Below the pieces are notes generated by a model. That model saw only the letters and a program-made list of their open reading frames with translations, was not told the origin of the DNA and searched no databases. A program made the position numbers and the translations under genes. From positions 394,840-458,839 of the forward strand of contig NZ_JAJUWT010000003.1 in NCBI RefSeq assembly GCF_021390395.1: a stretch of 64,000 bases of DNA, read 5' to 3'. The DNA comes from Saccharothrix sp. S26. GTDB lineage: Bacteria; Actinomycetota; Actinomycetes; Mycobacteriales; Pseudonocardiaceae. Below, in pieces: positions 4,395 through 52,406 of the stretch (position 1 is its first letter; the number at the start of each line of letters is the position of its first letter).

Positions 4395-4440
4395 CTGAGA
4401 TCGCGCTGAGAGCGGGCCGCACGCTGAGAGCGCACTGAGA
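4395..4440 (-). promoter_or_regulatory. Four TCTCAG repeats with 11-bp spacing: probable response-regulator binding site
   Basis: On the minus strand TCTCAG occurs four times, its plus-strand CTGAGA starting at 4395, 4406, 4424 and 4435, that is two pairs spaced exactly 11 bp, with 18 bp between the pairs. Tandem sites one helical turn apart are the usual binding pattern of OmpR-family response regulators. The array lies between the LolA-like operon and the response-regulator gene and faces the former. The same hexamer with the same spacing occurs upstream of sigE (52380-52406). Confidence 0.65.
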
Positions 4441-4482
4441 CTCCCGCGCCGATTGTCCTCCTCACGGGGCATGCTGTGGGAC

Positions 4483-5217
4483 GTGAGACCACGGGTGCTG
4501 GTTGTCGACGACGAGATCGGCGTGCGACGCGCGTTGGAACGCGGCCTGTCCGCGGAGGGCATGGAAGTGGTGACGGCCGCCGACGGCCCCAACGCCCTGC
4601 GCGTGGCGTTGACCGGCGCGTTCGACGTGGTGCTGCTGGACATCATGCTGCCCGGCCTGTCCGGCTACCGGGTGCTCCAGCGGATGCGCGCCGAGGGCGT
4701 GCGCACGCCCGTGCTGATGGTGTCGGCCAAGGACGGCGAGGTCGACCAGGCCGACGGCCTCGACCTCGGCGCGGACGGCTACCTGGTGAAGCCGTTCTCG
4801 TTCGTGGTGCTGGTGGCGCAGGTGCGGGCCCTGCTGCGGCGCAACTCCGCGGACCTCGCGCGGCGCAGGCTCAAGCTGGGCGAGCTGGTGGTGGACCGCG
4901 CCGTGCGCGAGGTGAGCTGGGCGGGCGAGCCGGTGTCGCTGTCGCCGCGCGAGTACGCCGTGCTCGACGTGCTCGCCAGCCGGGCCGGGTCCGTGGTCAC
5001 CAAGGACGAGCTGCTGCGCACGGTGTGGGGCGACGAGCAGGCCGCCACCCGCAACGCGGTCGAGGTGTACGTCGGCTACCTGCGGCGCAAGCTCGACGCG
5101 ATGGGCGCGGGCGAGGTCGTGCGGACCGTGCGCGGGCACGGCTACCTGGCCTCCACGCCCGACCTGGACGCGGCGCTGGGTGCGGCGGGAACCCCGGCGG
5201 GGACCAGGCGCAGGTGA
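4483..5217 (+). CDS. OmpR/PhoB-family response regulator
   Basis: A 244-residue DNA-binding response regulator. The receiver domain (residues 1-120) shows RPRVLVVDDE, the phospho-acceptor in VVLLDIMLPG and the conserved lysine in LVKPFS. The winged helix (about 135-230) ends NAVEVYVGYLRRKLD and VRTVRGHGYLAS. The frame could start at ATG 4471, but GTG 4483 places the receiver immediately at the N-terminus. The histidine kinase start overlaps its stop as GTGA. Its likely targets are the TCTCAG arrays at 4395-4440 and 52380-52406. It resembles MprA/CseB-type envelope regulators in general design; orthology to MprA is not shown. Confidence 0.9.
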   Translation: MRPRVLVVDDEIGVRRALERGLSAEGMEVVTAADGPNALRVALTGAFDVVLLDIMLPGLSGYRVLQRMRAEGVRTPVLMVSAKDGEVDQADGLDLGADGYLVKPFSFVVLVAQVRALLRRNSADLARRRLKLGELVVDRAVREVSWAGEPVSLSPREYAVLDVLASRAGSVVTKDELLRTVWGDEQAATRNAVEVYVGYLRRKLDAMGAGEVVRTVRGHGYLASTPDLDAALGAAGTPAGTRRR

Positions 5218-6497
5218 ACCTGGTGCGGTGGTGGCCGCGCCGGTGGTGGCTGCACCGGACGCTGCGGTTCCGGATCACCGTCGTGGCGACCGGCGTGGCG
5301 CTGCTGTGCCTGCTCGCGTTCACCCTGCTCGCCCCGCAGCTCATCGGGTACGTGCAGGTCAGCGCGGTGGACCGGGAGCTGACCAAGGCGGGCACCGTGC
5401 GCGTGCTCGACACCGCGGGCACCCCGCTGGACGGCGGGCCGCGACCCGACCTGACCGCGGCGGAGATCCGCGCGCTCAAAGCGGGCGACCCGGTGCTGCG
5501 CGTCGACGGGGCCAGCGCGCACCGGTGGATCGGCCGGGTCGTGTTCACCGCGGACGGCACGCCTGAGCTGCACGTCACCGGCGACACCCTGATCGGCTAC
5601 CGCGAGGCCAACCAGCTCGGCACGCGGTGGCTGGCCGTGGCCGCGGTGCTGGTCGCGGGCCTGGTGGGGATCGCGACGTGGCTCGCCGTGCGGTCGTCGT
5701 TGCGGCCCGTGGAGCGGATGCGGGTGGCCGCGGCGGAGCTGCCGCGCGGGCAACGCCTGCCCGTGCCGGCCGCGCGGGACGAGCTGCAAGCGCTTGCGGA
5801 GGCGTTGAACGCGCTGCTCGCCAGGCGTGACGAGGCCACCGAACGGCTGCGCCGGTTCACCGGTGACGCCGCGCACGAGCTGCGCTCGCCCGTGACGTCC
5901 GTGCGGGCGCAGGCCGAGGTGGCGGTCGCGCACCCCGACCCGGACTTCTCCATCGAGGTGCTGGAATCGGTCGTCGAGGAGTCCGAGCGGCTGTCCGCGC
6001 TGGTCGACGCGCTGCTGATCCTGGCCCGCGCGGACACCGGCGAGCTGCCCCGCGCCGAACCCGTCGACCTCGTGCTGCAAGCGCAGGCCGCGGTGGACCG
6101 GATGGGGGAGACCGACCTGCTCGTGCAGTTGGCCGCGCCCCTGTCGGCGTGCCTGATCTCCGCCGCGCGCACCGAGGTGGAGCTGGTGCTGGACAACCTG
6201 CTGCGCAACGCGGCCCGGTACGCCCGGACGTTCATCCGGATCTCGGTGCTGCCCGCCGCCCGCGAGGTGCGGCTGCTGGTGGACGACGACGGGCACGGCA
6301 TCCCCGAGGAGCACCGGGAGAAGGTGTTCGACCGCTTCTACCGGGTCGAATCCGATCGCGGACGGGCCACCGGCGGGTTCGGGCTCGGCCTCGCGCTCGT
6401 GGCGCACCTCGTGCGGCGACGGCGGGGCACGATCCGGGCCGGTGAGTCACCCGAGGGCGGCGCGCGGCTGGAGGTGCGCTGGCCGCTCTACCGGTGA
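5214..6497 (+). CDS. Sensor histidine kinase
   Basis: A 427-residue membrane kinase. TM1 lies at about residues 20-42, followed by an extracytoplasmic sensor loop of about 90 residues, TM2 at about 138-160, and a HAMP segment. The HisKA phospho-acceptor is in AAHELRSPVTSV, and the HATPase domain shows N box LDNLLRNAARYA, G1 VDDDGHGIPEEH and G2 GGFGLGLALV. All catalytic boxes are intact. GTG at 5214 overlaps the regulator's stop by four bases, so the pair is a two-component system. The short sensor loop and the LolA-like neighbour suggest an envelope signal, which is inference. Confidence 0.92.
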   Translation: MNLVRWWPRRWWLHRTLRFRITVVATGVALLCLLAFTLLAPQLIGYVQVSAVDRELTKAGTVRVLDTAGTPLDGGPRPDLTAAEIRALKAGDPVLRVDGASAHRWIGRVVFTADGTPELHVTGDTLIGYREANQLGTRWLAVAAVLVAGLVGIATWLAVRSSLRPVERMRVAAAELPRGQRLPVPAARDELQALAEALNALLARRDEATERLRRFTGDAAHELRSPVTSVRAQAEVAVAHPDPDFSIEVLESVVEESERLSALVDALLILARADTGELPRAEPVDLVLQAQAAVDRMGETDLLVQLAAPLSACLISAARTEVELVLDNLLRNAARYARTFIRISVLPAAREVRLLVDDDGHGIPEEHREKVFDRFYRVESDRGRATGGFGLGLALVAHLVRRRRGTIRAGESPEGGARLEVRWPLYR

Positions 6498-6522
6498 CGT
6501 GCGGCTGACAAGATGTGCGACC

Positions 6523-7338
6523 GTGCCCGAGCTGAGGACCACCACCCTGGTCGACGCCCCGTTGCGGACCGTCGCCGCCGCGTTGCTGGACGCCCGACTG
6601 CTGGCGCGGGCCGTGCGCGGGCTGGGGGTGCGGATCACCGGCGGCGCGCCGGTGCTGTTCGCGGGCGCTTCGCTGGCCGGGTCGGTGGGGCCGGTGAACG
6701 GGACGCTGGTCGTGACGCGGGCCGACACCACGGGCGTGTCGGCGGAGCTGGTCGGCGGGCCGTTGCCGCGGTTCACGCTGGTCACGGACCTGTTGCACAC
6801 CGGTGGCGGCACGATGGTGGTCGACTCGGTCGAGTGGACCAGCCCCGGCGGGCCGTTCGGCCGCCTGGCGGACGTGCTCGTGGGCCGTGGCCTGGCCTTG
6901 AAGGTCTTGGAGGCACGTGCCGCCGCCGTGTCCGCGCGGAGCGTCGAGCTGCTTCGCGCGCGCGTGGTGGTAGCCGCCGCGATCATCCACGAGGGCCGCC
7001 TGCTGGCCCAGCAACGCGGCTACCCGCCCGAGGCGGCGGGCAAGTGGGAGCTCCCGGGCGGCCGCGTCGAACCGGACGAGACCGACCACGACGCCGTGAT
7101 CCGCGAGTGCGCCGAGGAGCTGGGCATCACCGTCACCCCGGGCGACCAGGTGGGCCCGGACATCCCGCTGCGCCCCGACCTGCTGCTGCGCGCCTACGCG
7201 GCCACCCTGACCTCGGGCACCCCGACCCCGACCGACCACCAGGCCACCCGCTGGCTGACCTCCACCACCCTGGACACCGTCGACTGGCTCCCCGCCGACC
7301 GCGTCCTCCTCCCCACCCTCCACCTCCTCCTCCCCTAA
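6523..7338 (+). CDS. SRPBCC-like domain fused to a Nudix (MutT-type) hydrolase
   Basis: A 271-residue two-domain protein. Residues 1-140 look like a START/SRPBCC ligand-binding fold (VPELRTTTLVDAPLRTVA..., and a C-terminal helix GRLADVLVGRGLALKVLEAR), as in polyketide cyclase/CoxG-type proteins. Residues 148-271 are a Nudix hydrolase with a complete box: GGRVEPDE, seven residues, then RECAEELGI. The IIHEGRLLAQQRGYPPEAAGKWELPGG lead-in is typical of MutT-like (deoxy)nucleotide pyrophosphohydrolases. There is no stop or frameshift between the halves, so the fusion is real in this sequence. GTG 6523 follows the kinase gene by 25 bases. Confidence 0.8.
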   Translation: MPELRTTTLVDAPLRTVAAALLDARLLARAVRGLGVRITGGAPVLFAGASLAGSVGPVNGTLVVTRADTTGVSAELVGGPLPRFTLVTDLLHTGGGTMVVDSVEWTSPGGPFGRLADVLVGRGLALKVLEARAAAVSARSVELLRARVVVAAAIIHEGRLLAQQRGYPPEAAGKWELPGGRVEPDETDHDAVIRECAEELGITVTPGDQVGPDIPLRPDLLLRAYAATLTSGTPTPTDHQATRWLTSTTLDTVDWLPADRVLLPTLHLLLP

Positions 7339-7350
7339 AACCCCGCGCGT

Positions 7351-7510
7351 GTCCTACGTTCAGAACGCGAGAGTCCTACGTTCAGAACACGAGAGTCCTA
7401 CGTTCAGAACCCCCGAGTTCAACGCTCAGACCGACCGACCGGTCTGCCGAGTGTTGAACTCGAGGGTCGCGAACGTAGGACTCTCGCGGCGTGAACGTAG
7501 GACTCTCGCG
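7351..7510. repeat. Composite palindromic intergenic repeat, copy 1
   Basis: The left side carries three tandem copies (first one partial) of a 22-base unit containing GAGAGTCCTACGTTC. The right side carries two copies of the same unit inverted. Between them is a 14-base inverted pair, CGAGTTCAACGCTC at 7414-7427 and GAGTGTTGAACTCG at 7449-7462, around a GACCGACCGACCGGTC core. It fills nearly the whole gap between the convergent Nudix and trpS genes, so it could fold as a bidirectional terminator. A second copy lies at 24231-24370, also between convergent genes. Confidence 0.85.
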
Positions 7511-7514
7511 GGGG

Positions 7515-8480
7515 TCAGGACAGGCCCGACATGCGGAGGGCGGCGTCCAGGCGGTGGGTGCAGCGCTCACGGGAGCGCTCCGCGCCGTGGGCGCGGGCCC
7601 GGTCCAGCTCGGCCGGGTCGTCCAGCAGGCGTTGGGTGACCTCGCGCACGGGACGCAGCTCCTCGATCACCGCGTCCGCCGTGACCTCCTTCAACTCCGA
7701 GTAGTCCGACAACGACGACGCCAGCTCGGCAGGCTCCTTGCGCGTGCACGCGGCCAGGATCTCCAGCAGGTTCGCCACCCCCGGCTGCTCCACCGGCGCG
7801 TAACGCACCTCGCCCAGGTCGTCGGTCACCGCACGCCGGATCTTGCGCCGCACCAGGTCCGGCGGGTCCAGCACGAACACCGTGCCCGCCGCGTCCTTCG
7901 CGGTCTTGGCCATCTTCCGCGACGGGTCCGCCAGGTCGCGCACCCGTGACGCGGTCGGCGGCACCACGGACCGCGGCACCACGAACACCTCGCCGTAAGC
8001 GCCGTTGAACCGACGCGCCAGCACCCGCGCCAGCTCCACGTGCTGCCGCTGGTCGTCACCGACCGGCACCTCGTGCGCACCCTGCAACAGGATGTCGGCC
8101 GCCATCAGCACCGGGTACGTGAGCAGGCTCAACCGCACCGACGACCGGCCCGCCGACTTCTCCTTGAACTGGATCATCCGCGCCGCTTCGCCGTACGTGC
8201 AGGTGCACTCCAGCACCCACGTCAACGCGCCGAGCTCGCGGACCAGGTCCGACTGCACGGCCACCGAGCGCGGGTCGACGCCGGCGGCGATGAGCACCGC
8301 CAACTGCTCCCGTGTCAGCGATCGCAGTCGTGACGGGTTGTGCGACGTCGTCATCGCGTGCAGGTCGCTGATGAAGTAGACGTCCTCTTCGGTGCCGTCG
8401 GCGGCCCACCGCCGGATCGCGCCGAGGTAGTTGCCCAGCTGGACCGGGCCGGACGGGGTGATCGCGGACAGCCTGATCAT
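7515..8480 (-). CDS. trpS: Tryptophanyl-tRNA synthetase
   Basis: A 321-residue class I aminoacyl-tRNA synthetase that charges tRNA-Trp in the cytoplasm. It begins MIRLSAITPSGPVQLGNYLG, the TrpRS form of the HIGH region. ISDLHAMTT (tryptophan-site loop), MIQFKEKS and YPVLMAADILL follow, and the KMSKS loop reads RKMAKTAK. ATG 8480 was chosen because the TrpRS fold begins there. The reading frame upstream crosses a terminator hairpin and a separate leader peptide, so it is not coding. In Streptomyces coelicolor an auxiliary, indolmycin-resistant TrpRS is controlled by ribosome-mediated attenuation; the layout here suggests the same type of control, though resistance itself cannot be read. Confidence 0.93.
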   Translation of the reverse strand: MIRLSAITPSGPVQLGNYLGAIRRWAADGTEEDVYFISDLHAMTTSHNPSRLRSLTREQLAVLIAAGVDPRSVAVQSDLVRELGALTWVLECTCTYGEAARMIQFKEKSAGRSSVRLSLLTYPVLMAADILLQGAHEVPVGDDQRQHVELARVLARRFNGAYGEVFVVPRSVVPPTASRVRDLADPSRKMAKTAKDAAGTVFVLDPPDLVRRKIRRAVTDDLGEVRYAPVEQPGVANLLEILAACTRKEPAELASSLSDYSELKEVTADAVIEELRPVREVTQRLLDDPAELDRARAHGAERSRERCTHRLDAALRMSGLS

Positions 8481-8527
8481 GGTGATCCCTTCGGGGTGTG
8501 CCCGCTCGGCCCGAACCCCCGAAAGCA

Positions 8528-8556
8528 CGAAGGCCGCCCCAGCGGGCGGCCTGCGT
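8528..8556 (-). terminator. Attenuator terminator upstream of trpS
   Basis: In the trpS transcript AGGCCGCC (8552-8545) and GGCGGCCT (8538-8531) form an 8-bp GC stem with a 6-base loop, extendable by a few pairs, followed by a pyrimidine-rich stretch before trpS. The leader segment GGCGGCC just before the leader-peptide stop is complementary to the left arm GGCCGCC. A leader:left-arm pairing (antiterminator) and the terminator hairpin would therefore exclude each other. Confidence 0.75.
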
Positions 8557-8574
8557 TCGTCTGACGCGCAGTTC

Positions 8575-8622
8575 TCAGGGCCGCCGGAAGGCGGACCACC
8601 AGAACGGGTAAAGAGTGCGCAT
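8575..8622 (-). CDS. trpS leader peptide with tandem Trp codons
   Basis: A 15-residue reading frame, MRTLYPFWWSAFRRP, starts at ATG 8622 and stops with TGA at 8575, 94 bases upstream of trpS. Two consecutive TGG codons lie at 8601-8596, just before a small hairpin (CCGCC-TTC-GGCGG) and about 23 bases before the terminator stem. This is the classical arrangement for transcription attenuation: stalling at the Trp codons when charged tRNA-Trp is scarce would free the antiterminator. It is too short for routine gene finding; the tandem Trp codons and the overlapping alternative stems support it. Confidence 0.8.
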   Translation of the reverse strand: MRTLYPFWWSAFRRP

Positions 8623-8662
8623 AGCCGCGATCCTAGCGTGTTACGCCGGTGTGTCACGGGTC

Positions 8663-8668
8663 TACATT
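8663..8668 (+). promoter_or_regulatory. -10 element TACATT, leaderless start of the YciI-like gene
   Basis: TACATT ends six bases before ATG 8675, the spacing expected if transcription starts at or next to the start codon. There is no Shine-Dalgarno sequence in front of the ATG. Confidence 0.5.
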
Positions 8669-8674
8669 TCTTCT

Positions 8675-8974
8675 ATGTACGTCGTGCTGCTGGAGTACAC
8701 CGCACCGCTGGACGAGGTCGACTACGCCCTCCCGGACCACGTGGAGTGGCTGAAGAAGCAGTACGAGGCCGGGCACTTCCTGGCCTCGGGCCGCCAGGTG
8801 CCGCGCGTGGGCAGCGTGATCATCGCGCGGCCGATGCCGCGCGGGAAGCTGGACGCGCTGCTGGCCACCGACCCGTTCGCGATCCACAAGCTGGCGAAGT
8901 CCCAGGTGGTGGAGTTCCAGGCCACCCGGACCGCGCCGGAGCTCGCCAGGGTGAACGAAGCGGTGATGGGCTAG
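8675..8974 (+). CDS. YciI family protein
   Basis: A 99-residue single-domain protein of the YciI/DGPF-like ferredoxin-fold family. It starts MYVVLLEYTAPLDEVD, has HVEWLKKQYEAGHFLASG and ATDPFAIHKLAKSQVVEF, and the conserved histidine and aspartate of the family are in place. Members are proposed to be small enzymes or dehalogenase-like proteins; the function here is unknown. It is divergent from trpS and its leader and followed convergently by the small Cys/Lys-rich gene. Confidence 0.88.
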   Translation: MYVVLLEYTAPLDEVDYALPDHVEWLKKQYEAGHFLASGRQVPRVGSVIIARPMPRGKLDALLATDPFAIHKLAKSQVVEFQATRTAPELARVNEAVMG

Positions 8975-9023
8975 CCGGCGGGCACGGCCCACGACCCACC
9001 CGGCGTCGGCCGGGCGGCGGCTC

Positions 9024-9203
9024 TCACGCGGCCGTCTTCTTCTTGCCTTTCTTCTTCTCCTTCTTGCGCTCCTGCTTCGCCGCCTTCTTCGCGGCTTTCT
9101 CCCGGGCCTTGAGCAGCACGACCACCGGACAGCTCTTGCACCTCGGTGTCGAACGGCAGCACTTCTTCTTCACCTTGACCTTGCCCACGTCCGCGTGCTC
9201 CAC
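9024..9203 (-). CDS. Small Cys- and Lys-rich conserved protein
   Basis: A 59-residue protein, GTG 9203 to TGA 9024. After VEHADVGKVKVKKK comes a cysteine cluster CCRSTPRCKSC, then PVVVLLKAREKAAKK and a Lys/Ala-rich tail ending KKKTAA. Four cysteines within 11 residues suggest metal binding, and the basic tail suggests nucleic-acid contact; neither is proven. An alternative frame starting at ATG 9207 reads as acidic low-complexity sequence and is rejected. An IdeR-like iron box (9223-9241) overlaps a TACTCT -10 element (9225-9220) just upstream, so expression is probably iron-regulated. Confidence 0.75.
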   Translation of the reverse strand: MEHADVGKVKVKKKCCRSTPRCKSCPVVVLLKAREKAAKKAAKQERKKEKKKGKKKTAA

Positions 9204-9222
9204 TCATCCGGGTGTCCTCAGA

Positions 9223-9241
9223 GTAGGTGAGGCTGACCTCA
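9223..9241. promoter_or_regulatory. IdeR/DmdR-type iron box
   Basis: GTAGGTGAGGCTGACCTCA matches 15 of 19 positions of the actinobacterial iron-regulator consensus TTAGGTTAGGCTAACCTAA. It sits in a longer inverted repeat with arms AGGTGAGG and CCTCACCT (9225-9244). It overlaps the -10 (TACTCT, minus strand 9225-9220) of the small Cys/Lys-rich gene, where binding would repress. The typA start is 112 bases away on the other side and is a less likely target. Confidence 0.6.
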
Positions 9242-9353
9242 CCTGCCGTCCCTGTGTGGTAAGGGCGCTGCGCCCGGTAAGCTGTAGTCAGGCTGCGCGC
9301 GATCCATGTCCGGCGCCTGGCTTCCCTCGCACAGACATCTGTAGGAGTTCCGC

Positions 9354-11255
<1,902 letters not shown>

Positions 11256-11265
11256 GCGCGCCATA

Positions 11266-11279
11266 CCTTATATATAAGG
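11266..11279. repeat. Perfect 14-bp AT-rich palindrome after typA
   Basis: CCTTATATATAAGG reads the same on both strands and is an unusual AT island in this GC-rich sequence. It begins 11 bases after the typA stop and ends 9 bases before the terminator hairpin. It might strengthen termination or be a protein site; nothing decides between these. Confidence 0.6.
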
Positions 11280-11288
11280 GTCCGCTGC

Positions 11289-11318
11289 GGGCACCTCGGT
11301 CTTCGGACCGGGGTGCCC
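11289..11318 (+). terminator. Hairpin terminator of typA
   Basis: GGGCACCTCGGTC pairs with GACCGGGGTGCCC around a TTCG tetraloop, giving a 13-position GC-rich stem with one mismatch 33 bases after the typA stop. It has the form of an actinobacterial terminator without a long U tract. Confidence 0.75.
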
Positions 11319-11353
11319 GTCTCGTATCCGGCCCCGTCCACCCGTCATCGCCA

Positions 11354-11429
11354 AACACGATTGGGTGAACATCGGCCAAAAATGTACGGAAACACTGTTA
11401 CCGCCCCTCGGTTGGAACATGAGGAAACC
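11354..11429. repeat. Intergenic repeat with TGTACGGAAACACTG core, copy 1
   Basis: A block of about 75 bp whose central 36 bp (11379-11414) are identical to 43520-43555. The flanks are similar too (AACACGATTGGGTGA here, AACACGATCGGGTGA there; GAGGAAACC and GAGGAACC). The core contains an imperfect palindrome, CGGAAACA-C-TGTTACCG. It lies between typA and lpqW. Confidence 0.8.
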
Positions 11430-11804
11430 GACCGACCGCCCCTGCCTCACCCCCAACCCCCGACCCCGACCCACACCCCTCGACCACCGCTCCCACCCCA
11501 CCACCACCACCGCCCGCTCCCACCACCGCCCGCCACCCCGACCGCCCGCCACCCCGACCGCCCGACCGCCACCCGCCGCCTCCGGGCCCCGCGGCCGGCC
11601 GCCGAATCGGCGCGGGCCCCATGCGTCGGCGGTGGCCGGCCCGGGAGCGCTCGGGCCTGGGTCGGCGGGTGGTGTGGGTCACAGGGCTCGGTGCACGGCC
11701 GGATCGGGATCGGGATCGGGATCGGGTGGGGGTTGGTGGTGAGCGGGTGATGGGTGAGTGGGGTTGGGCGTCAACTGTCAGCGACGTCTGGCACGCTCGT
11801 ACCC
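11430..11804. other. Long C-rich/G-rich intergenic region upstream of lpqW
   Basis: No credible gene is seen in these 375 bases. The first part is C-rich low complexity with a 16-base unit (ACCGCCCGCCACCCCG) repeated at 11525 and 11541. Near 11702-11725 the hexamer GATCGG is repeated four times. Open frames here are compositional artefacts. The lpqW promoter should lie at the right end, but no clear -10/-35 pair is recognised. Confidence 0.6.
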
Positions 11805-41903: not shown

Positions 41904-42057
41904 CCAGCCGGACCGAAGACAGCGTCGACGCCCCGGTTTCCACTGTGGAACCGGGGCATCGCCACGTCGTGCCGCGCTGCCGTGCGGCACCTGTTCACCT
42001 GCGGCTTTAGTCCCGGTCGCGTCGAACCCGCCTGCTCACCCCCTCGGAGGTCCCCCC

Positions 42058-43509: not shown

Positions 43510-43567
43510 TCATGGCCGGAAAATGTACGGAAACACTGTTACCGCCCCTCGGTTGAATCGAGGAACC
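43495..43567. repeat. Intergenic repeat with TGTACGGAAACACTG core, copy 2
   Basis: A second copy of the block at 11354-11429, with 36 identical central bases (43520-43555). Its left part, AACACGATCGGGTGA, contains the end and stop codon of pepA. The imperfect palindrome CGGAAACA-C-TGTTACCG is conserved. It lies between convergent pepA and the LysR gene. Confidence 0.8.
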
Positions 43568-44740: not shown

Positions 44741-44783
44741 CACCGCATGGATTCTGGCAAATCGGCGCATTGGACGTATCGCT

Positions 44784-44789
44784 TAGCGT
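44784..44789 (+). promoter_or_regulatory. -10 element TAGCGT, leaderless MFS gene
   Basis: TAGCGT ends seven bases before GTG 44797 in the 56-base divergent gap between the LysR and MFS genes, consistent with a leaderless transcript. Confidence 0.5.
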
Positions 44790-44796
44790 CGGAGAC

Positions 44797-46071
44797 GTGC
44801 CGAGCCGCCTCACCACCGCCGTCGCCGCCACCGGCCTGGCCACGTTCGCGCTGCTCTACGCACCGCAGTCGGTCCTGCCCGCCATCGCCGCCGACTTCCG
44901 CCTCACGCCGGCCGAAGCGTCCCTCGCCATCAGCGCCGCCACCGGCGCGCTCGCCCTCGCGATCATCCCCCTGGCGACCCTCGCCGACCGGGTCGGCCGA
45001 CGCCGCGTGATCGTCTGGTCCGTCCTCACCGCCGCCGCCCTCGGCTTGCTCCTCCCGCTCACCCCGACCTACGAAACCCTCCTCGCCGCCCGGGCCCTGC
45101 AAGGCGTCGCCACCGCGGGCGTCCCGGCGACCGCCATGGCGTTCCTCGCCCAGGAAGCCGGCCGGACCCACGTCGGCGCGGCCATCGGGGCACTGGTCGC
45201 GGGCAACAGCGCGGGCGGCATGGTCGGCCGCCTCATCACCGGCTTCACCACCGACGGCACCTCGTGGCGCACCGCCCTGGCCCTGGCGGGTGCGTTCGGC
45301 GCGGCCTGCGCGATCACCGCCGCCCTCTTGCTGCCCAACGGCCACCGCGCCGAACGCCGCCCGAGCGCGCTCAAGGACGCCCTCACCGACCGCGTCCTGC
45401 TTTGCCAGTACGCGATCGCGATCCTCGCCGTGGCGGCGTTCATCTCGGTCTTCAACGTGATCGGCTTCCGCCTCACCACCGACCTGGGCCTGCCCACCGC
45501 CGTCGCCACGCTGGTCTACCTGACCTACGCGGCGGGTGGCGCCACGTCCGCCGCCGCGGGCCGCCTGGCCGACCGCCACGGCCGCGCCCGCATCACCCTC
45601 GCCGACCTGGCGTTGGCCGCCGCGGGCGCCGCCCTCACCCTCGCCGACCACGTCGTCGTGATCGCCGTCGGCCTCACCCTGTTCACCGGCGGCTTCTTCG
45701 CCGCCCACGCGGTCGCGAGCGGCTGGGTCGGCGCCCGTGCCCCGGCCCACGTGCGGGGCCAGGCGTCGGGCGTCTACCTGTTCGCGTACTACGTCGGCAG
45801 CAGCACCGGCGGCACCGCGGGCAGTGCCGCCTACCAGGCGCACGGCTGGCCGGGCCTGACCGCCCTGGTCGCGGCCTGGCTCGCCCTGGCGGCCCTCGCC
45901 GCGGTCACGGCTCAGAAGTCCAGCGGCACCTCGACCCCCGCCCCGCCGGTCACCGCGACCGCGTCCACCTGCGGCAACGTCACCGTGCCCGCCGCCACCG
46001 AGAACGTCACCGCCCGCACGTCCTCCGGCACCTCGAACACCACCGCCACCGGGAACGTGTCCCCGCCGTAA
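44797..46071 (+). CDS. Major facilitator superfamily transporter
   Basis: A 424-residue permease with 12 predicted TM helices in two bundles (LTTAVAATGLATFALLYAP, the conserved loop ATLADRVGRRRVIV between TM2 and TM3, and AGRLADRHGRARIT in the second half). The family resembles YnfM/aromatic- or drug-efflux transporters regulated by an adjacent LysR. The last helix ends near 45905. About 50 further Ser/Thr/Ala-rich residues overlap the 3' end of the convergent lipoprotein gene antisense for 160 bases because no earlier stop occurs. Confidence 0.88.
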   Translation: MPSRLTTAVAATGLATFALLYAPQSVLPAIAADFRLTPAEASLAISAATGALALAIIPLATLADRVGRRRVIVWSVLTAAALGLLLPLTPTYETLLAARALQGVATAGVPATAMAFLAQEAGRTHVGAAIGALVAGNSAGGMVGRLITGFTTDGTSWRTALALAGAFGAACAITAALLLPNGHRAERRPSALKDALTDRVLLCQYAIAILAVAAFISVFNVIGFRLTTDLGLPTAVATLVYLTYAAGGATSAAAGRLADRHGRARITLADLALAAAGAALTLADHVVVIAVGLTLFTGGFFAAHAVASGWVGARAPAHVRGQASGVYLFAYYVGSSTGGTAGSAAYQAHGWPGLTALVAAWLALAALAAVTAQKSSGTSTPAPPVTATASTCGNVTVPAATENVTARTSSGTSNTTATGNVSPP

Positions 46072-47264
46072 CGCGCGCCGACCTGCCGCGCCGCCTGCCC
46101 GCTGGGCACGGTCAACGTCAGCAGAGCCGACGTCTGCCCCGCGCCGACCACGCTCGGCAGCCCGTGCCCGATCAGCCGCAGCTCCACCAGCGCCATCCCG
46201 GGACCGGCCGTGACCAGCTCGTACTGCCCGCCCGACGACACCGGCCGCTGCCGCCCCAACCGGGCCCGCACGACCTCCAGCGACCCGGCCGCCGCACCCA
46301 CCGCCACCGGCGTCGACACCGAGATCGACTCCGGCCCCGGCGCCCGCCGCAACGCCCGGGGCGCGTCGCCGACGACCTGCCCGGACGGCACCTCGACCCG
46401 CTGCTGCAACGACTTCGTCCCCACGGTGTCGAGCACCAGCGACTCCTGCCCGCCCGCGGCCGGCACGGTGTAGACGATCAGCGCCGACCCGTTGTCCGGC
46501 AGCCGTTCGGCGGGCAGCCGGTGCCGCCTGCCGGGCACGTCCAGCGACAGCTCCGGCGGCTGCGGCAGCCACCCGCGCCACGGCGTCTGCCCGAACGCCG
46601 AGTCGACCTCGCCGTGCCGCGTCACCCGCACCCGCAGCACCCGCAGCGCCACGCCGTGCTCGGCCCGCAGGTCGCCTTCCGCCGTCGGCCACACCGCCGG
46701 CGACGCATACCCCGTCACGTGCACCTCGAGCTGGTCGTCGCGCACCATCGCGGACGCCGCGTCCAGCACCTGGCCGTCGTCGGGCAGCACGGCCAGGAAG
46801 TCCGGCCCCGCCTGGCCGACGCCCTGGTCGGCGGAGGTCTCGCGGCCGTCGGTGCGCACCAGCTTGCCCACCGGTGTGCTGCGCGCGCCCTGCGGCGGCA
46901 CCTGCGGCGGCTGCACCTCCAGCCGGATCCCGGCCGCGCTGCGCTCGACCTGCTTCAACGGCACCGGCACCCAGTCGGTGGTCGCGGCCGTGCCCGGCAC
47001 CTGCACCGGGCCGCACCACAGCCGCGTGTCGACCTCGAACGCCTGGCCGGTGCGCGCGAACCAGCAGCTCACCGCGTCACGGCCGGTCCGGGCCACGTAC
47101 CCGAACGACAACGTGTAGCTCAGCTCGGCCTCGCCCCGCGCCTGCAGGCCGGCCGCGTCCAGCACCGCCTCTCCCTGGATGGTCAACCTCACCTGCTCGG
47201 CGCTGAACGCGGGCGTGGCGCACCCTCCGGCCACCAGCGCGAGCAGGAGCACAAGCCACCGCAT
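45912..47264 (-). CDS. Putative lipoprotein, unknown function
   Basis: 450 residues. The N-terminus MRWLVLLLALVAGGCATP is a signal peptide with lipobox VAGGC. The rest is beta-rich with no recognised domain (LTIQGEAVLDAAGLQARGEA, RVRVTRHGEVDSAFGQTPW, HRLPAERLPDNGSALIVYTV). It is probably anchored on the outer face of the membrane. It is convergent with the MFS gene (160-base overlap) and lies upstream of glgA on the same strand, separated by 112 bases. Confidence 0.7.
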   Translation of the reverse strand: MRWLVLLLALVAGGCATPAFSAEQVRLTIQGEAVLDAAGLQARGEAELSYTLSFGYVARTGRDAVSCWFARTGQAFEVDTRLWCGPVQVPGTAATTDWVPVPLKQVERSAAGIRLEVQPPQVPPQGARSTPVGKLVRTDGRETSADQGVGQAGPDFLAVLPDDGQVLDAASAMVRDDQLEVHVTGYASPAVWPTAEGDLRAEHGVALRVLRVRVTRHGEVDSAFGQTPWRGWLPQPPELSLDVPGRRHRLPAERLPDNGSALIVYTVPAAGGQESLVLDTVGTKSLQQRVEVPSGQVVGDAPRALRRAPGPESISVSTPVAVGAAAGSLEVVRARLGRQRPVSSGGQYELVTAGPGMALVELRLIGHGLPSVVGAGQTSALLTLTVPSGQAARQVGARYGGDTFPVAVVFEVPEDVRAVTFSVAAGTVTLPQVDAVAVTGGAGVEVPLDF

Positions 47265-47376
47265 ACCGCCCCCAGTAGTCGCCCCTACTGGTTAGAAGGC
47301 GGTCGGCGGGCCGTACCGTTGCATCCCGTTCGGGTGATGGAGGTCACACCCCCCATCACCCTCGGGCATCATCCGG

Positions 47377-48540
47377 TCACTTGGCGCTGGTCAACGCCGC
47401 TTCGTAGACGGCCACGGTCTGCTCGGCCACCGTCGCCCACGAGAACTCCTCGACCGCCCGCACCCGGCCGGCCTCACCGAACGCCTTCGCCCGCGCCGGG
47501 TCGCCGAGCACCTCGTTCACCGCGTCGGCCAACGCCACCCGGTACGCCTCGACGTCCTTCTCGTCGTAGTGCACCAGCAGCCCGGTCCGCCCGTGGTCGA
47601 CGACCTCCGGGATGCCGCCGACGTCGGACGCCACGACCGCCGTGCCGCACGCCATGGCCTCCAGGTTCACGATGCCCAGCGGCTCGTACACCGACGGGCA
47701 CACGAACACCGTCGAGTGGCTCAGGATCTGCCGCACCTCGGCCGGCTGGAGCATCTGCTGGATCCAGAACACCCCGGGCCGCGACGCCGCCAGCTCCGCC
47801 ACCGCCAGCCGCGTCTCCTCGGCGATCTCCGGCGTGTCCGGCGCGCCCGCGCACAGCACGACCTGCGCGTCCGGCGAGATCCGGTGCGCGGCGGCGACCA
47901 GGTGCCCCACGCCCTTCTGCCGCGTGATCCGCCCGACGAACGTCACGATCGGCCGTGCCGGGTCGATCCCGTGCCGGACCAGCGCGTCGGTCTCGGACAC
48001 CGGGTGGTAGGCGGCGGTGTCGATGCCGTTGCGCACCACGTGCACCCGCGCCGGGTCCAACGCCGGGTAGCAGTCCAGCACGTCGGCCCGCATGCCCTCG
48101 CTGACCGCGATCACCGCGTCCGCCGCCTCGTACGCGGTCCGCTCGACCCAGGACGACACCCGGTAGCCGCCGCCGAGCTGCTCGGCCTTCCACGGCCGGC
48201 GCGGCTCCAGCGAGTGCGCGGTCACCACGTGCGGGATGCCGTGCAGCAGCTTGGCCAGGTGGCCCGCCATGTTGGCGTACCAGGTGTGGGAGTGCGCGAG
48301 CTGCACGTCACCCAGCGCGGCGGCCATCTCCAGGTCCACCGACAGCGTGGCCAGCGCGGCGTTCGCCCGTTCCAGCCCGTGCGCCGGGTTGTGCGCCCTG
48401 GCGTCCGCGCGCGGCCCGCCGAAGGCGTGCACGTCGACGTCCACCAGTTCGCGCAACCTCGGCACCAGGAAACCGACGTGCACCCCAGCTCCGCCGTAGA
48501 CCTCCGGCGGGTACTCCCGTGTCAGCAGTCCAATTCGCAC
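47377..48540 (-). CDS. glgA: Glycogen synthase/maltose-1-phosphate synthase (GlgA/GlgM type, GT4)
   Basis: A 387-residue GT-B glycosyltransferase. IGLLTREYPPEVYGGAGVHV is the nucleotide-sugar loop, VTAHSLEPRRPWK follows, and the donor site is FVCPSVYEPLGIVNLEAMA. In M. tuberculosis the equivalent gene (Rv1212c) makes alpha-maltose-1-phosphate from ADP-glucose and glucose-1-phosphate for alpha-glucan synthesis. GTG 48540 lies seven bases after a TACGGT -10 element; GTG 48549 is the alternative start. It is divergent from glgC, which supplies ADP-glucose. Confidence 0.93.
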   Translation of the reverse strand: MRIGLLTREYPPEVYGGAGVHVGFLVPRLRELVDVDVHAFGGPRADARAHNPAHGLERANAALATLSVDLEMAAALGDVQLAHSHTWYANMAGHLAKLLHGIPHVVTAHSLEPRRPWKAEQLGGGYRVSSWVERTAYEAADAVIAVSEGMRADVLDCYPALDPARVHVVRNGIDTAAYHPVSETDALVRHGIDPARPIVTFVGRITRQKGVGHLVAAAHRISPDAQVVLCAGAPDTPEIAEETRLAVAELAASRPGVFWIQQMLQPAEVRQILSHSTVFVCPSVYEPLGIVNLEAMACGTAVVASDVGGIPEVVDHGRTGLLVHYDEKDVEAYRVALADAVNEVLGDPARAKAFGEAGRVRAVEEFSWATVAEQTVAVYEAALTSAK

Positions 48541-48547
48541 GGGGCTC

Positions 48548-48553
48548 ACCGTA
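48548..48553 (-). promoter_or_regulatory. -10 element TACGGT, leaderless glgA
   Basis: On the minus strand TACGGT ends seven bases before GTG 48540. If it is the -10, transcription starts at the glgA start codon, which argues against the longer GTG 48549. Confidence 0.45.
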
Positions 48554-48631
48554 ACCCGGTCGCCGGGGGCAGCCGGGTGAACGAGCGGAGTCCGCGCCGC
48601 TTCGCCGTTGGTGGGCCGGTGCTCACCCGGT

Positions 48632-48637
48632 TAGGGT
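48632..48637 (+). promoter_or_regulatory. -10 element TAGGGT, leaderless glgC
   Basis: TAGGGT ends seven bases before GTG 48645 and there is no Shine-Dalgarno sequence, consistent with a leaderless transcript. The -10 elements of glgA and glgC are 78 bases apart. Confidence 0.5.
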
Positions 48638-48644
48638 CGTTGCC

Positions 48645-49859
48645 GTGAAAGGGCAACCGCACGTTCTAGGAATTGTCCTCGCCGGTGGCGAAGGCAAACG
48701 GTTGTGGCCGTTGACCGCCGACCGGGCAAAACCGGCGGTGCCCTTCGGCGGTAACTACCGGCTGGTGGACTTCGTCCTGTCCAACCTGGTGAACGCGGGG
48801 TTCGTCAAGCTCTGCGTGCTCACCCAGTACAAATCCCATTCCCTGGACCGGCACATCTCCACGACGTGGCGACTGTCCAATGTGCTCGGGCAGTACGTCA
48901 CGCCGGTGCCGGCGCAGCAGCGGCTCGGGCCGCGCTGGTACACCGGCAGCGCGGACGCGATCTTCCAGTCGCTCAACCTCGTCAACGACGAGAAGCCCGA
49001 GCACGTGATCATCTTCGGCGCGGACCACGTCTACCGGATGGACCCGGGCCAGATGGTGGAACAGCACGTCGAGACGGGTGCGGGCGTCACCGTGGCGGGC
49101 ATCCGGGTGCCGCGGGCGGAGGCCAAGGCGTTCGGCTGCATCGACTCCGACGCGTCCGGGTTGATCACGCGGTTCCTGGAGAAGCCGTCCGAGCCGCCGC
49201 ACGTGCCGGACGACCCCGAGGTCACGTTCGCGTCGATGGGCAACTACGTGTTCACCACGGAGGCGCTGATCGAGGCGTTGCGGGCGGACGCGGCCAACCC
49301 CGACTCCGACCACGACATGGGCGGCGACATCATCCCGATGCTCGTCGACCAGGGCCAGGCCCACGTCTACGACTTCGCCGACAACAAGGTGCCGGGGGAG
49401 ACCGACCGCGACCGCGGCTACTGGCGTGACGTGGGGACCATCGACGCCTACTACGAGGCGCACATGGACCTGGTGTCGGTGCGCCCGGTGTTCAACCTCT
49501 ACAACCAGGCGTGGCCGATCCGGACGGCGACCCCGCCGCTGCCGCCCGCGAAGTTCATCGCGGGGGGCAGCGCCGAGGACTCCATGGTGGGGCCGGGGTC
49601 GATCATCTCCGGCACCGTCCACGGGTCCGTGATCAGCTCGGACGTGGTCGTGGAGTCCGGGTCGGTGGTGCAGGGCAGCGTGCTGCTGCCGGGCGTGCGG
49701 ATCGGGCGCGGCGCGGTGGTGCGGCGGGCGATCCTGGACAAGAACGTCGTGGTGCCCGACGGCGCGCTGATCGGCGTGGACCCGGCGACGGACCGGCAGC
49801 GCTACACCGTGTCGTCCGGCGGCGTGACGGTGCTGGGCAAGGGCGTCACGGCGCACTGA
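48645..49859 (+). CDS. glgC: Glucose-1-phosphate adenylyltransferase
   Basis: A 404-residue enzyme making ADP-glucose from ATP and glucose-1-phosphate. The N-terminal nucleotidyltransferase has [20 protein letters not shown] and GTADA-like [20 protein letters not shown] is the sugar-phosphate site and [13 protein letters not shown] the core motif. The C-terminal left-handed beta-helix has [17 protein letters not shown] and [13 protein letters not shown]. Length and motifs match Rv1213. It is divergent from glgA. Confidence 0.95.
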
Positions 49860-50226
49860 GCGGGTGGCCGGTGGTCACGTCGACGTGCTCGGGGACCTCC
49901 TCGTGGCGGTCCCCGACGGTCGACGTGCCGCTGGGCTCGATCATCAGGATGCGCGCGCCGTCGGGGGACGACGGCTTGTGACGCGTGCCCTTCGGGACGA
50001 CGAAGACATCGTGCGGCTCCAGGTGCACCGTGCGGTCGTCGAGGGCGATGTCCAGTTCGCCGTCGAGGACGAGGAAGAACTCGTCGGTGTCGTCGTGGGC
50101 GTGCCAGACGTGCTCGCCGCGGACCTTGGCGACGCGGATGTCGTAGTCGTTGACCGCGGTGACGACGCGCGGGCTCCACAGGGCGTCGAAGCTCGCCAGC
50201 GCCTCGGTCAGGTTGATCGGATCCAT
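49846..50226 (-). CDS. Cupin-domain protein
   Basis: A 126-residue single cupin barrel. The two metal-binding motifs are visible: [19 protein letters not shown] and [17 protein letters not shown]. Possibly an isomerase, dioxygenase or sensor; the substrate is unknown. It overlaps the glgC end by 14 bases. Its start is 53 bases from a divergent GlxA-type regulator. Confidence 0.88.
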
Positions 50227-50279
50227 GGCGTCGATGCTGCGCGGCGGGGGCGTGCGGGCGTGAGTGCTAGGAATCGCAC

Positions 50280-51311
50280 ATGCCGCCAGGATCCTCGCAC
50301 CGCGTGGTGATGATCGTCGACTCCGGCTCGAACCCGTTCGAGCTGGGGGTGGGGACGGAGCTGTTCGGGCTGCGCCGGCCGGAGCTGGGGCGGCCTTGGT
50401 ACTCGTTCGGCTTGAGCGCGCTCGGGCCAGTCCGGATGAACCACGGCTTCTTCACCCTTACGGGTGTCCCCTCGTTGGGCGAGGTGGAGCACGCGGACAC
50501 CGTGATCGTGTCCAACCGGCCGGACAGCTGGATCCGGCCGCCGGAGCCGGTGCTGGAGGCCGTCCGGCGGGCCCACGACCGGGGTGCGCGGCTGGTCAGC
50601 TTCTGCACCGGGGCGTTCACGCTGGCGCACGCGGGCCTGCTGGACGGTCGTCGGGCGACCACGCACTGGCAGTGGGCGGGGTTGTTCCGGGAGATGTTCC
50701 CGCAGGTGGAGCTGGTGCCAGACGTGCTGTACGCGCAGGACGGCCCGTTCTGGACGGCGGCCGGCAGCGCGGCCGCGCTGGACCTGGGGCTGCACCTGAT
50801 CCGGGAGGACCACGGCGCGGAGGTGGCCAACGCGGTGTCCCGGCGGCTGGTGTTCGCGGCCCACCGCGACGGCGGGCAACGCCAGTTCGTGCGCCGCCCC
50901 GTGCCCGACGTGCCGGACCAGTCGCTGGCCGACGTCCTGACCTGGGCACGAGCGCGCCTGGACGAGCCGGTGACGGTGGCTTCGCTGGCGGCTCGCGCGG
51001 CCGTGAGCCAAGCGACCCTGCACCGCCGGTTCCAAGCGGAACTGGGCACCACACCCCTCGCCTGGCTGACCGCCGAACGGGTGGACCTCGCCCGAAGCCT
51101 CATCGAGCGTGGCGAAACGCGCCTGGACGTCGTCGCCCGCCGCAGCGGCCTGGGCTCCCCGTCCACCCTGCGCACCCACTTCCACCGCCGCACGGGCCTG
51201 ACCCCCAGCGCCTACCGCGCCCGCTTCGGCCCTGCTCCAGCCACCCCACCGCCAGTTGTCCACAACCCGCCACGGACTACCGCCGATCGTCGAATCGAGC
51301 CGGCAGGATAA
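50280..51311 (+). CDS. GlxA-type AraC-family regulator with DJ-1/PfpI domain
   Basis: A 343-residue two-domain regulator. Residues 8-190 are a DJ-1/PfpI-like domain (VVMIVDSGSNPFELGVGTELF, nucleophile-elbow region LVSFCTGAFTLAHAGLLDGR with Cys, ATTHWQW). Residues 215-315 are the AraC double helix-turn-helix (VASLAARAAVSQATLHRRFQ, VVARRSGLGSPSTLRTHFHR). The last 20 residues (VVHNPPRTTADRRIEPAG) are encoded by a repeat element that starts GTTGTCCACA, suggesting the original stop was lost. It may control the divergent cupin gene. Confidence 0.88.
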   Translation: MPPGSSHRVVMIVDSGSNPFELGVGTELFGLRRPELGRPWYSFGLSALGPVRMNHGFFTLTGVPSLGEVEHADTVIVSNRPDSWIRPPEPVLEAVRRAHDRGARLVSFCTGAFTLAHAGLLDGRRATTHWQWAGLFREMFPQVELVPDVLYAQDGPFWTAAGSAAALDLGLHLIREDHGAEVANAVSRRLVFAAHRDGGQRQFVRRPVPDVPDQSLADVLTWARARLDEPVTVASLAARAAVSQATLHRRFQAELGTTPLAWLTAERVDLARSLIERGETRLDVVARRSGLGSPSTLRTHFHRRTGLTPSAYRARFGPAPATPPPVVHNPPRTTADRRIEPAG

Positions 51312-51343
51312 AAGCAGGGGTCCCCTGGGCGGGTACCCCTGCG
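51257..51343 (+). repeat. GTTGTCCACA-to-GGGGTCCCC hairpin element, copy at the end of the GlxA-type gene
   Basis: It begins AGTTGTCCACAACCC inside the 3' end of the regulator gene and ends in the hairpin GCAGGGGT-CCCC...GGG-T-ACCCCTGC (51314-51342). It shares both parts with 34602-34690 and the hairpin with 55966-55992. After the stop codon the hairpin can act as a terminator towards the convergent methyltransferase gene. Confidence 0.65.
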
Positions 51344-51694
51344 AAGCATCCCCGCGCCGCGGGCCTCGCGGTGACCGGGTGGTTCGTGACCGGGTGGTTC
51401 GTGCGAGCACGTGCAGGTGGCGTGCGATCCGGTCCGCGGCAGCGGGCGGGCGGGGGTGCGGTCGAAGGTGGTGCCGGCGGTGTGTGGGTTGCCGCTGCTC
51501 GTCGCGATCCGCAGCGGGTGACCGTGGCAGACGAGCCCTGTGTGGTGGTCCCGCGCCGGTTCGCGGCCTTGCGGGGCCGGTTGGTTCGTCCGAGCGCGTG
51601 CGGGTGGTGTGCGGTCGGGTTTGGCGCGTGTCGGGTGGGCCTGGTGCCGGCCGCGTGTGGACAACGGGGCGGTTCGTCGGGGCGACGGGCCGGG
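51344..51694. other. Intergenic region with direct repeats
   Basis: 351 bases without a gene between convergent genes. A 15-base unit GTGACCGGGTGGTTC is repeated in tandem (51371-51400). A longer stretch of about 40 bases near 51392-51431 recurs in diverged form near 51582-51621 (GGTTCGTGCGAGCACGTGC against GGTTCGTCCGAGCGCGTGC). It looks like decayed repeat sequence. Confidence 0.5.
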
Positions 51695-52321
51695 TCAGCC
51701 GGCTTTGGCGGCCACCAGCAGGCCGTCGCCCAGCGGCAGGATCACGGGCACCAGGCGGTCGTCCTCGCGGACCGCGCGGGCCACCTCCCGCATCGCCGCC
51801 GTGTCCGGGTCGCGCTGGGACGGGTCCACCACGCGGCCGTGCCACAGGACGTTGTCGAACGCGATCACGCCGCCCGGCCGCAGCAGCCGCACGCCCTCCG
51901 CCAGGTACTTCGGGTACTCCGACTTCGCCGCGTCCACGAACACCAGGTCGTACGCGCCGTCGGTCAGCCTCGGCAGCACGTCCAGCGCCCGGCCCATGAT
52001 CAACCGGGTCCGCGACACCGCGATCCCGGCCTCCGCGAACGCCACCCGCGCCGCCCGCTGGTGCTCCGGCGACACGTCGATCGACGTCAGCACCCCGGCC
52101 GCCGGCATGCCGCTGAGCAGGTACAACGCCCCGACCCCGGCCCCGGTGCCGATCTCCACCACGGCCTTGGCCTGCAACGCCGCGGCGAGGAACCGCAACG
52201 CCGCCCCGCCGCCGGACCCGATCGGCACGCACCCCAACTCGGCGCCACGAGCCCTGGCGGCCGTGATCACGGCGTCCTCGGGCAGGTAGCCCTCCACGTA
52301 CTCGCGCGTCGGCGCATCCAC
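51695..52321 (-). CDS. O-methyltransferase (class I, CCoAOMT-like)
   Basis: A 208-residue SAM-dependent methyltransferase of the catechol/caffeoyl-CoA O-methyltransferase family. The SAM-binding VVEIGTGAGVGALYLLSGMP, LTSIDVSPEHQRAAR, the metal-site DLVFVDAAKSEYPKYL and GGVIAFDNVLWHGRV are intact. GTG 52321 lies seven bases after TAGCCT (minus strand 52334-52329), so it is probably leaderless. Divergent from sigE, as Rv1220c is from sigE in M. tuberculosis. Substrate unknown. Confidence 0.92.
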   Translation of the reverse strand: MDAPTREYVEGYLPEDAVITAARARGAELGCVPIGSGGGAALRFLAAALQAKAVVEIGTGAGVGALYLLSGMPAAGVLTSIDVSPEHQRAARVAFAEAGIAVSRTRLIMGRALDVLPRLTDGAYDLVFVDAAKSEYPKYLAEGVRLLRPGGVIAFDNVLWHGRVVDPSQRDPDTAAMREVARAVREDDRLVPVILPLGDGLLVAAKAG

Positions 52322-52328
52322 AGCACGA

Positions 52329-52334
52329 AGGCTA
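52329..52334 (-). promoter_or_regulatory. -10 element TAGCCT, leaderless methyltransferase gene
   Basis: On the minus strand TAGCCT ends seven bases before GTG 52321, with no ribosome-binding site. Confidence 0.5.
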
Positions 52335-52379
52335 ACGCCGCCGGCGGCGGTTCGGGTGGTTCCCGGCGACAACCGGGAT

Positions 52380-52406
52380 TCTCAGCGTGCTCTCAGCCGC
52401 CTCTCA
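52380..52406 (+). promoter_or_regulatory. Three TCTCA(G) repeats with 11-bp spacing upstream of sigE
   Basis: TCTCAG at 52380 and 52391 and TCTCAC at 52402 are spaced exactly 11 bp, facing sigE. TATAAG (52414-52419) follows and could be the -10, placing the repeats over the -35 region as for OmpR-type activators. The motif and spacing are the same as at 4395-4440. In M. tuberculosis the response regulator MprA binds directly repeated motifs in front of sigE. Confidence 0.65.

Follow-up and report, generated by a model that had tools for sequence, protein, structure and literature searches.

Paired hexamers in the window

The window analysed here is a 64,000-nucleotide stretch of the Saccharothrix sp. 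S26 genome (C3:394840-458839 of genome G000, which comprises 9.08 Mb in 54 contigs). We examined a paired direct repeat, TCTCAG-N5-TCTCAG, which stands before two sets of genes in this window and which we interpret as a candidate binding box of the response regulator MprA. The first array lies on the minus strand between two divergent loci. On one side is a predicted operon that begins with a gene for a LolA/RseB-like protein (3196..4332, minus strand) and continues with genes for an ABC transporter ATPase (2186..3199, minus) and an ABC-2 type permease (1356..2189, minus). On the other side are the genes of an OmpR/PhoB-family response regulator, hereafter the window regulator (4483..5217, plus strand; start uncertain, with in-frame candidates at 4471, 4483 and 4495), and of a sensor histidine kinase (5214..6497, plus). 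This array consists of a distal pair, TCTCAGTGCGCTCTCAG (4424..4440, minus), which is nearer the regulator gene and has counterparts in relatives, and a proximal pair, TCTCAGCGCGATCTCAG (4395..4411, minus), which is nearer the LolA-like gene. The second array precedes sigE (52446..53111, plus; start at 52446, 52518 or 52539), whose product is an extracytoplasmic function (ECF) sigma factor scoring 352.8 bits against the NCBIfam SigE equivalog (cut-off 265). Its units 1 and 2 form an exact pair (52380..52396, plus), unit 3 (52402..52407, plus) has the sequence TCTCAC that is most frequent in the family, and a fourth, degenerate unit may follow in 11-bp phase (52413..52418, plus; TTATAA here and CCTCAC in several relatives). 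Genes for a putative anti-sigma factor RseA (53108..53731, plus; zinc-finger match below the cut-off) and for an HtrA-like serine protease with a PDZ domain (53909..55339, plus) follow.

The initial annotation had reported TCTCAG repeats at both places, and these are real. Three exact pairs are present in the window against 0.003 expected and five in the whole genome against 0.40 expected, both values being derived from a first-order model of the window. All five are intergenic according to the gene calls made here. With up to one mismatch, the genome yielded 13 matches compared to two when the pattern was read backwards. In the window alone, the four matches found with up to two mismatches were not above chance (2.7 expected); the above-chance signal is thus carried by the exact pairs and by their conservation, not by the two-mismatch matches.

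The architecture described earlier stood in part. The sigE array, announced as three units, does show the 11-bp period and an exact first pair, but its third unit is TCTCAC and a degenerate fourth may follow. Likewise, each of the two pairs announced at the LolA-like gene is present, but the inner units of the two pairs start 18 bp from each other, off the 11-bp phase. This rules out one continuous array and indicates two separate pair sites. A single pair matching at least 11 of the 12 positions was found between the LolA-like and regulator genes of four relatives (G006, G030, G038 and G040).

The backward pattern with a free spacer, GACTCTN(0-20)GACTCT, was matched 67 times in G000 and 0-8 times in each of 59 relatives. 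A repeat with spaced GACTCT seems to be present in G000 only, among these genomes. G000 was excluded from the spacer sums given below, since this backward control of the looser pattern is inflated there (67 vs 7 matches).

Conservation of the pair across the family

The distribution of the pair was surveyed in 60 genomes of the family (G000 and 59 relatives) from 46 genera. The best match out of 12 positions was recorded in the 300 bp before each counterpart gene, for a total of 174 loci, with the backward unit at the same 174 loci and coding DNA serving as controls. Besides sigE and the window regulator, this survey included the regulator gene that lies behind a further exact pair of the genome (C3:194983). 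The gene in question encodes an OmpR-family regulator, is followed by a kinase gene and has its ATG 23 bp after the end of that pair; we consider it to be the counterpart of mprA of Mycobacterium tuberculosis.

At mprA, 35 of the 60 genomes present an exact pair, 18 match at 11 positions, one at 10 and six at 9, and the best match lies on the same strand and starts 39-40 bp before the ATG in all 60. The six matches at 9 (G014, G020, G041, G044, G053 and G058) carry GTTAAG as the first unit and keep the second unit intact. For comparison, the backward unit reached 12 at none of these loci, 11 at one and 10 at one, and coding DNA never reached 11. Before sigE, 51 genomes are exact, six match at 11, two at 10 (G002 and G048) and one at 8 (G033), and the third unit is TCTCAC in most of the family. 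Here, the backward unit never reached 11 (six loci at 10) and coding DNA never exceeded 9. Of the 54 loci of the window regulator, 49 have exact pairs and one matches at 11. The four loci below that score are those of G004, G042, G050 and G028; the homologue of G050 is only 53% identical to the window regulator and was excluded as a counterpart, whereas the contig of G028 ends at the regulator gene, with the LolA end on another contig that bears two exact pairs. A pair of at least 11/12 between the LolA-like and regulator genes is present in 51 of the 53 genomes bearing the regulator. Across all 174 loci, the backward unit yielded no match at 12, two at 11 (one at mprA and one at the window regulator) and 12 at 10, and the coding control none at 11 or above.

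A looser search led to the same preferred spacing. TCTCAG-N(0-20)-TCTCAG was found at least once in each of the 60 genomes, and the 59 relatives together have 556 matches compared to 103 for the backward pattern. Among the 150 matches listed, 79 have a 5-nt spacer and the next commonest spacer, of 6 nt, occurs in 12. These 79 pairs come from 16 genomes: 29 are located between the window regulator and LolA-like genes, 16 before sigE, 12 before mprA and nine on the mprA strand at most 8 kb past that gene (66 together). The remaining 13 include the last exact pair of the genome (C29:83941, which corresponds to L015:7942-7958). It ends 23 bp before a polyprenyl synthetase gene (L015:7982-8986) and may be either a lineage-specific MprA target or a chance occurrence.

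The expectation for exact pairs, the backward-pattern control and the conservation of the arrays exclude a chance origin. The genome-wide search and the comparison of both promoters in relatives, both suggested by the initial annotation as checks, came out in favor of its proposal of a shared element: exact pairs are enriched and sit between genes, coding controls stay below 11, and matches of at least 11 are found before sigE in 57/60 genomes and at the LolA/regulator locus in 51/53. Hexamer, spacing and orientation towards the target gene are indeed common to the two promoters and are conserved in the family.

The MprA counterpart and its predicted regulon

The MprA-type regulator gene (G000:C3:195023-195709) is located 200 kb outside the window and has an adjoining kinase gene. 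Its product is 42% identical to the window regulator and has counterparts in all 60 genomes of the family (80-100% identity) and in all eight genomes of a further family, f8 (79-84% identity), which we took for Mycobacteriaceae from the named Mycobacterium matches of its SigE. In relatives, an adjoining kinase was seen in the few loci that were looked at. The pair before mprA extends to these genomes: it is exact in seven of the eight f8 genomes, where it starts 39-40 bp before the start codon, and reaches 9/12 in the eighth (G128), while the one genome of family f7 has an 11/12 pair. Less similar relatives of MprA (54-63% identity; families f5, f9 and f13) showed no pair of at least 11 before the gene at any of five loci, and the box therefore appears confined to close MprA counterparts.

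Other genes of the predicted regulon carry the pair as well. A second pair within the 8 kb that follow mprA, in the same orientation, was looked at in eight loci, and the next gene differs in some of them. Searches of profile libraries assigned three proteases at such loci to the HtrA type and the two proteins that follow to the MoaB type. We take this arrangement to match the mycobacterial gene order mprA-mprB-pepD-moaB2. Before sigB, the pair is exact in G013 and has one mismatch in G000, the two genomes for which this was recorded. In named Mycobacterium, Rhodococcus, Nocardia and related species, sigE is preceded by TCTCAG-N5-NYTCAG or similar sequences, and 64 of the 80 mycobacterial-type sigE loci of this set match at 10/12 or more (61 in sense orientation), compared to 0/80 for the backward control. 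A mycobacterial-type SigE (88%) was also present on a contig titled as a Bifidobacterium breve MAG (L348), which is probably a wrongly binned contig.

Across the order, sigE loci reach at least 10/12 in 5/8 cases for f8 and in 0/11 for f4, f10, f14 and f16; two f9 loci reach this score on the other strand. No match to MprA at E 1e-70 was obtained in any of the eight genomes tested from f4, f10, f14 and f16. A minus-strand pair resembling TCxCAG-N5-CACAG points away from sigE at roughly -84 to -162 in L219 and L220 (f9) and in L231, L232, L236 and L238 (f16), where the divergent gene may be under another regulator that reads tandem repeats.

In M. tuberculosis, pepD and mprA itself are MprA targets, and the published consensus of the MprA box consists of two 8-bp repeats with a 3-bp gap. 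One report names sigE, sigB and htrA as MprA targets (PMC12113857), and another describes phosphorylated M. tuberculosis MprA as binding boxes at sigE and activating promoter P2, whose mRNA is leaderless (PMC10027907). We refer to the pair as an MprA box because it precedes mprA, sigE, pepD-type and sigB genes as well as mycobacterial mprA and sigE, and because the four families in which no MprA match was obtained showed no pair of at least 10/12 at sigE. Indeed, a kinase adjoining mprA, a box before mprA and boxes before sigE, pepD-type and sigB genes are what an MprA regulon should present at the sequence level. The element shared by the two promoters agrees with the MprAB-sigE precedent invoked by the initial annotation.

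Predicted promoter layout

The distances between the arrays and conserved -10-like elements suggest that one layout is shared. At mprA, a conserved AASACT begins 27 bp after the start of the pair and has its last base at -7 or -8 from the ATG, which predicts a leaderless promoter. At the LolA-like gene, the proximal pair starts 28 bp before the conserved -10-like xA...T (family consensus at +28..33); the predicted -10 is GAGCGT (4378..4383, minus) and no -35 was assigned. At sigE, unit 3 starts 27 bp before the conserved -10-like xA...T, with two units upstream of it and the possible degenerate fourth downstream, and the -10 predicted from the family consensus is CAAGCT (52429..52434, plus). 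The array is therefore predicted to stand in the place of the -35 element at all three promoters. Leaderless sigE transcription as a general rule gained no support beyond G000: only 4 of 57 genomes have, as G000 does, their farthest-upstream in-frame start 66 nt from the array. In most loci, the window regulator gene starts about 70 bp to the other side of the LolA array. The LolA side is the one predicted to be activated, since the array points at this gene and not at the regulator gene, which could itself be activated or repressed from the array.

Base-contact residues and the base after the hexamer

PhoP of M. tuberculosis provides a structural reference (PDB 5ed4). A tandem dimer of PhoP occupies TCACAGC-N4-TCACAGC and contacts its bases with Asn212, Val213, Glu215, Ser216, Tyr217 and Tyr220 (PMC4832192). 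The aligned positions are N,A,E,V,Y,Y in both MprA and the window regulator, compared to N,V,E,S,Y,Y in PhoP, and both regulators are predicted to read TCTCAG. Residue 216 lies near the third base of the repeat, and the change from Ser to Val accompanies a change of this base from A to T, which is consistent with a change of specificity without proving it. Many other counterparts of the window regulator have Val in place of Ala at the position of Val213; in that of G006, two of the six contact residues are Thr and Gln, with an exact pair still in place.

The promoters differ in the base that follows the hexamer. This base is G in 40/53 mprA pairs and 41/57 sigE pairs but in only 8/49 distal and 8/34 proximal LolA pairs, where it is mostly C (P of 1e-9 to 1e-5, uncorrected). 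This difference hints at a second reader at the LolA array.

Which regulator reads which array

Our preferred reading, to which we assign a probability of about 0.68, is that TCTCAG-N5-TCTCAG is the MprA box and that MprA reads the sigE, mprA and LolA/ABC arrays. The recurrence of the element at set places before mprA, sigE and the LolA/regulator locus, and its presence upstream of pepD-type and sigB genes of relatives, are directly observed in the genomes; we infer the binding of MprA, activation by this binding and a stress signal. In this mechanism, phosphorylated MprA would sit on the two hexamers as a tandem dimer, where a -35 box would otherwise stand, and would switch on sigE, mprA itself and the LolA-like/ABC operon. 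The window regulator, which is encoded divergently from LolA across the array, would likely read the LolA array as well, since it shares the predicted base-contact residues of MprA. It is probably not the reader at sigE, but it is a conserved member of the predicted circuit and possibly the second reader at LolA.

Counterparts of the window regulator of at least 62% identity are present in 53 of the 60 genomes, and in 130 of the 150 genomes of a larger set; about six losses occurred among the 60, a rough figure drawn from a FastTree phylogeny of two short proteins without support checks. In the seven regulator-less genomes of the 60, the mprA array scores 12 in four and 11 in three, and the sigE array 12 in four, 11 in one and 10 in two. 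An exact-only search of 13 further regulator-less genomes recovered the sigE pair in seven and the mprA pair in two. Since such genomes keep their sigE arrays, sigE does not need the window regulator. The initial annotation had proposed that this regulator controls both the LolA/ABC operon and sigE. The two arrays are alike in hexamer, spacing and orientation and the recognition residues of the regulator do fit TCTCAG, but a sigE array of 10-12/12 in all seven regulator-less genomes, together with the persistence of their mprA arrays, the box that mprA has of its own and the same kind of element at mycobacterial sigE, makes this proposal very improbable. What stood of it is the link between the two branches through a shared and conserved element, with MprA as the most likely regulator. 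It is more improbable still that another OmpR-family regulator, for instance of the PhoP type, is the main reader. The PhoP report does describe a similar TCACAGC repeat with an 11-bp period (PMC4832192), but the third base is T rather than A, residue 216 is Val rather than Ser, and the pair, degenerate in some genomes, stands at a fixed distance before mprA in 60/60.

A more serious alternative, which we nonetheless regard as unlikely, divides the arrays between two readers: MprA would act at mprA, pepD and sigE, and the LolA array would be read only by the adjoining regulator for its own divergent operon pair. LolA arrays of at least 11/12 were found in 59/65 genomes bearing the window regulator but in 1/7 of those that lack it and have kept the LolA-like gene (Fisher P 4e-5, with kinship ignored and the regulator gene adjoining the array). 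Where LolA is present, array and regulator go together in 2/2 genomes of genus g35, 3/3 of g38 and 4/5 of g5. The different base after the hexamer at LolA and the identity of the predicted contacts with those of MprA would also fit two readers. However, about 70 bp separate the array and the start of the regulator gene, and one deletion could remove both; the association is for this reason only suggestive. Moreover, G210, a draft genome (87% complete) without a match to the regulator, has two exact pairs before its LolA-like gene, and all five genomes examined of genus g42 (one at 10/12) as well as G004 have kept both the regulator and LolA without an array of at least 11. A lost recognition helix was rejected as the cause of the missing arrays in G004 and G042, where the helix is normal. 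The regulator-bearing genomes without a LolA array of at least 11 are G004, G042, G149, G170, G190 and G207 (10/12).

Several observations weigh against MprA as the common reader. The LolA-like gene is kept in 7 of the 20 regulator-less genomes and six of these seven have no array (best matches of 7-9/12); MprA was seen in four of the seven (G005, G035, G048 and G146), whereas G156, G210 and G211 fell outside that look-up. The LolA array thus tracks the window regulator better than it tracks MprA, and the scarcity of G after the hexamer at LolA points in the same direction. In genus g33, the sigE array was not found in any of the three genomes seen (G033, G094 and G103; best 8-9/12), and 16 of the 80 mycobacterial-type sigE loci reach only 9/12. 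A study of Corynebacterium glutamicum attributes to MprA of this species another motif, TKTTAAGAAM, and a mainly repressive role (PMC12113857). Finally, no MprA model appeared in the best 25 of 98 NCBIfam matches listed, and the name MprA rests on orthology and synteny. As a separate observation on genus g33, G033 has kept its mprA pair at 11/12 although no sigE array was found.

Extending the preferred reading, we tentatively suggest, as something less than an even chance, that MprA and the LolA-linked regulator converged on, or kept, identical contact residues, and that both read the boxes. Two envelope sensors would then meet at the LolA/regulator promoter pair, where the base after the hexamer (G or C) would bias which of them wins, and the LolA/RseB-like protein would act within the actinobacterial SigE network as a secreted chaperone or sensor of envelope stress.

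The LolA-like protein

In Gram-negative bacteria, RseB senses envelope stress for sigma-E, as PDB titles among the structural matches also state. The LolA-like protein of the window matches Pfam DUF2092 just over the cut-off and MucB/RseB just below it, and its closest relatives are Saccharothrix proteins (92-93%). Its AlphaFold model, built with 31 of 120 listed sequences, is of moderate quality (pLDDT 73, pTM 0.69). The best Foldseek hits of this model are LolA (1.2e-10) and RseB (3.4e-10), with target-normalised TM values of about 0.5-0.6 and rmsd of 8-12. The predicted fold accordingly resembles LolA and, for the greater part of the protein, the two-domain RseB. Relative to RseB/MucB and LolA of Gram-negatives, the likeness is that of the predicted fold (Foldseek E ~1e-10), whereas sequence identity is only 12-18% over the match. 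By analogy, an RseB-related role is a guess.

Comparison with known systems

The predicted circuit resembles MprAB-SigE of M. tuberculosis in having an MprA counterpart and, before mprA and sigE, paired direct repeats with an 11-bp period, which relatives also carry upstream of pepD-type and sigB genes. The gene order is similar as well: sigE is followed here by putative rseA, htrA and tatB (tatB by eye only), and the mycobacterial report gives rseA-htrA-tatB after sigE (PMC10027907). The circuit differs in that the box is here a near-perfect TCTCAG-N5-TCTCAG, with three to four units at sigE. A further difference is that the box also stands before a LolA-like/ABC operon, which faces away from a second two-component system and has been conserved across the family. 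PhoP shares with both regulators the OmpR/PhoB fold, tandem repeats of 11-bp period and four of the six contact residues; Ser216 and Val213 are replaced by Val and Ala in MprA and the window regulator, and the third base of the repeat is T. In Microlunatus phosphovorus, PolR (GTTCACnnnnnGTTCaC) also recognizes 6-bp direct repeats with a 5-bp spacer (PMC6754071), but its hexamer and its targets (polyphosphate and phosphate) are different.

The link between MprA and sigE is known in mycobacteria; the additions made here are a sharply defined box, the way it is laid out and, in this family, a conserved target locus. A literature search, for which most subscription papers were out of reach, returned none that joins MprAB, Pseudonocardia and sigE and none on the LolA/ABC/response-regulator locus. 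These results would define the MprA box sharply outside mycobacteria, as two TCTCAG units 11 bp apart in the place of the -35, and predict that mprA, sigE and a new target operon have a single, conserved promoter layout in common. They would also place a family-wide LolA-like/ABC/two-component locus in the MprA-SigE envelope-stress network. If the neighboring regulator does read the same boxes, the locus would constitute a natural case of paralogous response regulators that share or divide a DNA code.

Finally, several pairs with a 6-bp spacer are identical or nearly so in distant genomes: TCTCAGTTTCCGTCTCAG in G013, G015 and G045, and TCTCAGTTCTAGTCTCAG twice in G038. They may belong to some conserved gene or element that has nothing to do with the MprA box.

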